Assembly (NCBI GenBank): GCA_944323705.1
Contig: CALUTM010000017.1
Location: 1 to 35,193 of the forward strand
DNA from: Candidatus Gastranaerophilales bacterium
Lineage (GTDB): Bacteria > Cyanobacteriota > Vampirovibrionia > Gastranaerophilales > Gastranaerophilaceae
Reading direction: 5' to 3'
Length of the DNA stretch: 35,193 nucleotides
A program made the position numbers and the translations under genes. The notes beneath the pieces were generated by a model. That model saw only the letters and a list, made by a program, of their open reading frames with translations, had not been told where the DNA came from and made no database searches. Below, in pieces: positions 1 to 11,191 of this stretch; the first letter of the stretch is position 1; each line of letters starts with the position of its first letter.

Positions 1-76
1 TGCTCAGTGGGTTAGAGTACTGCTCTCGCATTGCGGTCGGCGCGTTCGGCGCTCTCACCAACTGAGCTACCTTGCC
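1..76 (-). repeat. tRNA-derived structured element, copy 1 (edge-truncated)
   Basis: Read on the minus strand from 76, the sequence starts like a tRNA: a 7-nt acceptor strand GGCAAGG, TA, then a D-arm with GCTC/GAGC stem. No anticodon arm, T-arm or matching CCTTGCC follows. Instead there is a GC-rich stretch, then a D-arm/anticodon-arm-like sequence on the opposite strand (plus 1-30, GCTCAGT...CTGCTCTCGCA). The two D-arms are inverted, so the element can fold into a long imperfect hairpin. It is not a functional tRNA. By analogy with the tRNA-Leu locus in this window, an intact tRNA may lie just beyond the left edge. Confidence 0.55.
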
Positions 77-104
77 ATAAGTCTATTTTGCTATTCTATT
101 GTCA

Positions 105-182
105 TTGGCTCAGTTGCTTCGAGTGCTGCTCTCACATTTCTTTAATCTCGTTCGTTTCACTCATTCAGGGAGCCACCTTGCC
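105..182 (-). repeat. tRNA-derived structured element, copy 2
   Basis: The same 5' start GGCAAGG and upstream flank (GACTTAT on the minus strand) recur 106 bp from copy 1. After GGCAAGGTGGCTC the sequence diverges into short-period AC/GA-rich DNA. It ends in an inverted D-arm/anticodon-like segment (plus 107-138, GGCTCAGTTG...CTGCTCTCAC). The ends pair (TGGCTC with GAGCCA, GAGTG with CACTC), predicting a hairpin. It lacks a complete cloverleaf. The segment 183-250 between it and the following terminator shows nothing I recognise. Confidence 0.5.
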
Positions 183-251
183 ATAAGTCACAACTGATAT
201 TCAGTTATCACCAAATAATCTTCGCATAAACATTTTTTAATTTCAAGCAAA

Positions 252-10905: not shown

Positions 10906-10992
10906 TGCTCCAGGCCAGACTTGAACTGGCACCGAGGGAGAACCCCGATTGGATTTTAAGTCCAACGCGTCTACCGATTCCGCCACTGGAGC
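10906..10992 (-). tRNA. tRNA-Leu (UAA anticodon)
   Basis: An 87-nt tRNA with acceptor GCTCCAG/CTGGAGC and discriminator A. Anticodon stem TTGGA/TCCAA encloses loop CTTAAAA, giving anticodon TAA. A long variable arm (CGGGGTTCTCCCTCG), typical of leucine tRNAs, precedes the T-arm with GTTCAAGTC. The 3' CCA is not encoded (the discriminator is followed by AGT). Confidence 0.95.
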
Positions 10993-11024
10993 GAACATTT
11001 TATTAAGTTTTCAATTACTCTCCT

Positions 11025-11109
11025 GCGGACTCGGTAGACCCGCGTCTACCTCCCCTCTCCTCGGACGTGACATTTAGTCACCTCCTCGTCGGCAGAGTGC
11101 CACTGGAGC
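11025..11109 (-). repeat. tRNA-Leu-derived structured element upstream of tRNA-Leu
   Basis: On the minus strand, position 11109 starts an 11-nt copy of the tRNA-Leu 5' end (GCTCCAGTGGC) with a similar upstream flank. It lies 117 bp before the real tRNA start. A GC-rich foldable stretch follows, with perfect hairpins GTGAC/GTCAC and GGTAGAC/GTCTACC. Plus-strand 11025-11044 reads GCGGACTCGGTAGACCCGCG, an inverted near-copy of the tRNA-Leu D-arm. This is the same layout as the elements at 1-182. The rest of the gap (11110-11191) shows nothing else. Confidence 0.6.
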
Positions 11110-11191
11110 GAATGTTTTTATTTTTCAACGTTGTTGCTATTCCAAGCCCGCAACAAACCTAATAATAATATAAACATCTTTTGAAGTCAAT

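Follow-up and report, generated by a model that had tools for sequence, protein, structure and literature searches.

The tRNA-Leu locus and its upstream unit

The window analysed here is the whole of contig C17 (35,193 nucleotides), from a Gastranaerophilales genome of 1.93 Mb in 87 contigs. It contains an intact tRNA-Leu gene, anticodon UAA (taa), at 10906-10992 on the minus strand (ARAGORN; Rfam RF00005, 61.9 bits). Read along the minus strand, on which all features of this locus lie, the order is AT-rich flank, GCTCCAGTGGC, 45-nt hairpin, GGTAGACGCG, GGTCTACCGAGTCCGC, AT-rich leader and gene. The leader adjoining the gene (10993-11020; F segment, TTGAAAA...TTAATA motif) resembles the flank at 11110-11132, its left copy, and the arrangement recurs in relatives.

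An initial annotation of this DNA had described an exact 11-nt copy of the tRNA-Leu start upstream of the gene, a foldable stretch and an inverted near-copy of the D-arm. All three are present. Positions 11099-11109 (GCCACTGGAGC on the plus strand, the exact reverse complement of tRNA nt 1-11) form a direct copy of the gene start beside the similar AT-rich flank. On the plus strand, 11025-11040 is GCGGACTCGGTAGACC, with one mismatch to the tRNA D-arm GCGGAATCGGTAGAC, and this copy is thus inverted with respect to the gene. Because none of 200 shuffled versions of the upstream region equalled either the direct or the inverted score, the two copies are not due to chance. The foldable stretch is a 45-nt hairpin repeat at 11054-11098, hereafter the core (covariance model R1, 69.3 bits, E 2.9e-13, with covariation), laid out in the window as ACTCTGCCGA-stem-GTGAC-TAAAT-GTCAC-stem-GAGAGG. 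A short direct copy of tRNA nt 18-27 (GGTAGACGCG) follows at 11041-11050 and is predicted to pair with 11033-11039 in a second hairpin.

Further upstream, at 11162-11190, stands a probable promoter, TTGACT-17 nt-TATTAT, recognised by sequence and by comparison with relatives: a TTGACtt...TATATTat arrangement precedes both filled and empty tRNA-Leu orthologues. Since this promoter-like site lies beyond the unit, the whole unit is probably inside the 5' transcribed leader of tRNA-Leu.

The same layout had also been noted at 1-182 of the window. There are in fact two tandem units at 1-200 (minus strand), at the end of the contig; the layout is alike and the insert (CCTGAATGAGTGAAACGAACGAG...) differs from the tRNA-Leu core. 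The intact tRNA belonging to these units lies off the contig end and, judged by the arm sequence, is probably an elongator tRNA-Met.

A small core repeat and its targets

A DNA search with the tRNA-Leu unit returned more copies in its own genome, and the pattern GTGACTAAATGTCACNTNNNNNGAGAGG had more than 109 hits in a genome collection, the labels on nearly all of them being Gastranaerophilales, Melainabacteria or uncultured gut bacteria. In an alignment of 41 distinct cores the ends are invariant (ACT.TGCCGA ... GAGAGG), where the constancy of GAGAGG, like that of the central GTGACTAAATGTCAC, was fixed by the search pattern and is no evidence. The middle stem covaries, with 68 double-changed cells, whereas shuffles gave 25 and slid controls no more than 17. 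One common variety in this alignment has apparent tandem G-A / A-G mismatches in the stem, and the end stem comprises only 4 bp, CTCT/AGAG.

With the covariance model, 13 core copies were detected in this genome at E<=0.5. Of 130 sampled genomes of the Gastranaerophilales family, 124 contained the core, in up to about 20 detected copies per genome (lower bounds, as few candidates per genome were scored), and so did one genome of a sister family; the core was absent from the other classes and the remaining phylum sample searched. Nearly all of these data are metagenome-assembled genomes (MAGs). No core was found in the viral contigs, phages or plasmids searched, and we rejected a viral, plasmid or phage origin. 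Rfam matched only tRNA and 5S at the gathering score, a permissive scan gave no credible weak match, and a literature search found nothing on tRNA-linked repeats in Gastranaerophilales.

We then compiled 103 distinct contexts of the core, from loci picked by exact pattern, so that the list of targets is biased. In 69 of them a tRNA gene lies within 300 nt on the 3' side of the core, 58 in the same orientation and 11 antisense; 10 contexts run off the end, and 24 have no tRNA within 300 nt downstream, some of the latter being 5S genes (L102) or units in Ile and Phe arrays. A tRNA gene stood only on the 5' side in 2 of the 103. These counts hold 3'-side genes in both orientations; therefore the intact gene is 3' of the core irrespective of its own direction, and polarity is fixed relative to the core.

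Where a core is linked to a tRNA, the end of that tRNA always stands copied in direct orientation in front of the core, and the copy breaks off at a position in the D-arm or T-arm. The match of the left flank to its target ends at nt 11-12 in Leu, Met and Lys, at nt 17-20 in Val, Ala, Thr and Pro, at nt 26 in Ile, and at a T-arm position in antisense units; the next target base after the copied stretch is nearly always G. The direct repeat, about 20 to more than 79 nt long, reaches into the leader or, in antisense units, about to the terminator. To the right of the core there is an arm remnant, often with a second hairpin or an inverted arm copy, and the sequence that follows the core folds more stably than its shuffled versions (mean z -1.24, against -0.23 in control regions). 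The earlier suggestion of copying from the neighbouring tRNA by a common process, rather than of random decay, agrees with these results: many tRNA genes in this genome have their own partial copy, and the left arm always fits the adjacent gene, while the core is family-wide and its stems covary.

The core is also found at 5S rRNA, and its non-tRNA copies are located within or beside palindromic repeats and other structured intergenic sequence. Five loci (L083, L097, L198, L311 and L314) have the core after GCGAC in a non-tRNA context, with ATACCCACAGGAGC downstream in some of them. These sites may represent another structured RNA or repeat; L083 and L198 had no Rfam match. Tandem arrays of units are common. 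In this genome (G000), contigs C2, C14, C15, C17, C21, C24, C36, C38, C59 and C79 have an end within or close to a tRNA gene or a unit; tandem units are thus the probable cause of these assembly breaks and probably conceal tRNA genes.

At orthologous tRNA-Leu(taa) loci within one genus, 24 readable loci had a 5' copy and 18 had none (L225 and L254 being borderline in opposite directions), all comparisons being between species-level genomes, mostly MAGs. Filled loci carried one to three units of at least three hairpin varieties (GTGACTAAATGTCAC, GATTGAGTATC and GATTAAGTATC). At two tRNA-Leu loci (L232 and L235), another structured insert sits inside the loop of the core hairpin, that is, as nested small insertions. 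Single genomes carry cores at several tRNAs and at dispersed non-tRNA sites. Identical or near-identical cores occur at different targets, and one unusual core is identical at a Met-antisense site in one genome and a His-antisense site in another.

Predicted pairing of the units with the adjacent tRNA

An inverted arm is readily recognised in the Leu, Ala and Asp units and in several T-arm units. In 13 of 56 units the inverted arm matched its own tRNA better than it matched tRNAs for other amino acids, where about 1.6 such units would be expected; its tRNA specificity is therefore real but not universal. As a universal rule it was rejected, failing at Val, Thr and others. General complementarity between core flanks showed no excess over control sites.

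It had been proposed that the leader folds against the pre-tRNA. For whole leader units, the predicted interaction was -6.7 kcal/mol with the own tRNA versus -1.6 kcal/mol with other isotypes (p ~8e-8), and with the core and the 5' copy removed it was -4.2 versus -2.1 kcal/mol (p ~3e-4), the units in both comparisons being phylogenetically non-independent. Stronger pairing with the own tRNA is thus predicted as proposed, but the direct copy contributes to it, units at Val-gac, Leu-tag and Ile show little of it, and the inverted arm singles out the own tRNA only in the minority of units given above. In the minimum-energy fold predicted for the leader and tRNA-Leu in the window, the upstream copy pairs with the 3' strand of the acceptor stem and the anti-D-arm with the D-arm, and the acceptor-stem probability falls from 1.0 to 0.0. 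Shuffled leaders also break the acceptor stem in about half of the cases. Many units are predicted to influence how the pre-tRNA folds.

These predictions bear on one alternative, that the unit is a cis-acting leader RNA which controls tRNA maturation or transcription by switching between its own fold and pairing through the 5' copy and the anti-D-arm. The position of units between promoter and tRNA, the modelled displacement of the acceptor stem by the upstream copy, the preference for the own tRNA and the covarying core stem all speak for such a role. Yet about half of the shuffled leaders disrupt the tRNA too, the Val, Leu-tag and Ile units hardly pair with their own tRNA, many orthologous tRNA-Leu genes have no unit, and copies that are antisense beyond terminators, at 5S rRNA or in intergenic palindromes could not act in this way. 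T-box and other tRNA-sensing leader RNAs are likewise structured 5' leaders complementary to a tRNA, but the unit has no Rfam match, precedes the tRNA gene itself and occurs also at probably untranscribed sites. We consider a general leader function unlikely; for sense units it is conceivable, though not needed, and it does not fit antisense and non-tRNA copies.

Origin of the units and related repeats

The reading we favour, and hold to be probable, is that each unit represents a single insertion of a mobile hairpin repeat that is very small, codes for nothing and is confined to this bacterial family. It is supported by the covariation of the core, its family restriction, the target copies, the polarity, the filled and empty loci, and the tandem and dispersed copies. 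On this reading the core would be moved in trans by an enzyme, with a preference for DNA able to form stem-loops, such as tRNA D-arms and T-arms, 5S rRNA and palindromic repeats. Each insertion would bring with it a copy of part of the target end and thereby leave the gene whole; snap-back copying at the hairpin would best explain the inverted arm, and any effect on tRNA folding would be a side effect or a later use. Against mobility, the lengths of the direct repeats vary widely, unlike a classic target-site duplication, and covariation is also expected of a functional RNA. The comparisons, made between species-level genomes, showed no de novo insertion within a single strain. No transposase or integrase was found linked to the core; the two Y1 genes of this genome adjoin other hairpins.

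More tentatively, and with less than even confidence, we suggest that the insertion itself copies the target end, from about the transcript end to the D-arm or T-arm, and places core and copy outside the gene with fixed polarity. We know of no such transposition mode described for known small repeats.

Without any mobile element, tRNA genes might have been duplicated in tandem and then have decayed, replication slippage leaving the hairpins behind. This would account for the truncated gene copies in the units and the common tandem arrays, and the inverted pieces do resemble template-switch products. This explanation is already disfavoured and seems to us quite improbable: in the sampled set one core with invariant ends occurs at many tRNAs, 5S and non-tRNA sites throughout the family, and polarity is set by the core, not by the gene. 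Least probable of all, indeed very doubtful, is that the units are remnants of a tRNA-targeting, site-specific integrative element shrunk to its ends, with the direct repeats as att cores: as with tRNA-targeting integrases, a duplicated gene end restores the target gene and insertions occur in tandem, and contigs often end at unit sites, but the attachment sequences of this one core family are many and unrelated, and it occurs at either end of genes and away from tRNAs, on no plasmid, phage or viral contig, and in units of 70-190 nt with no integrase.

Among known systems, the best account is of the core as a variant of the very small mobile repeats, apparently akin to SDRs and REPINs. The small dispersed repeats (SDRs) of cyanobacteria, as Elhai et al. 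reportedly described them in 2008, are very small, gene-free, lineage-specific hairpin repeats, often said to lie inside other repeats or structured RNA genes. Compared by description, the core is alike: very small, hairpin-forming, without genes, lineage-specific and often set within repeats or structured RNA genes. As in SDRs and MITE-like elements, it is short, non-coding, present in multiple copies at dispersed non-orthologous sites, and variably present at orthologous ones (the tRNA-Leu(taa) loci above). It differs from SDRs in carrying a direct and a partly inverted copy of the neighbouring tRNA end with fixed polarity; as to MITEs, we found no terminal inverted repeats beyond the 4-bp end stem and no fixed target-site duplication. 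REPs and REPINs, short, non-autonomous, dispersed hairpins mobilised by RAYT Y1 transposases, resemble the core in these properties, but a REPIN consists of paired inverted REPs (PMC3116915, which also cites the SDR paper, Genome Res. 18:1484) and the cores here are single. Both Y1_Tnp loci of this genome lack the core and bear other hairpins. These RAYT-like Y1 transposase genes (L168 and L169; C36:6655-7023 and C41:466-807) are each flanked by a hairpin repeat of their own, e.g. GTCGGTTGGGCATACTTGCCCAAC at the first. We rejected them as drivers of the core, as their repeats differ from it.

If the mobile reading is correct, a family of gut bacteria harbours a class of minimal mobile DNA, active now or until recently, that specialises in tRNA and 5S genes, and essential structured genes can serve as safe targets for elements of less than 50 nt. 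Insertion of the core with a copy would let the hairpin colonise such genes while leaving them unbroken. It would also help to explain why metagenome assemblies of Gastranaerophilales break at tRNA genes, and the tRNA leaders with and without inserts would form a natural set usable for studying tRNA maturation.

The phenomenon is broader than one core, because a second type of insert, about 90-100 nt long, sits in other tRNA copies. It is placed in the T-loop (GGATT/CGAACC) of antisense 3' tRNA copies and was found in this genome 3' of His (L029), Tyr (L007), Arg-tct (L018), Glu-ctc (L031) and Thr-cgt (L010) and, weakly, 3' of Ala-tgc (L015). RNAalifold returned no structure for the larger T-loop insert, for which the alignment was too poor. 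The insert recurs across the genus, and part of it is shared with a dispersed MITE-like repeat (GAGGATGCGGAAAAAGTC...) found at L292-L298 in two relatives. At L293 and L296, this MITE-like repeat itself carries a nested insertion at GCACT/CTGCCG.
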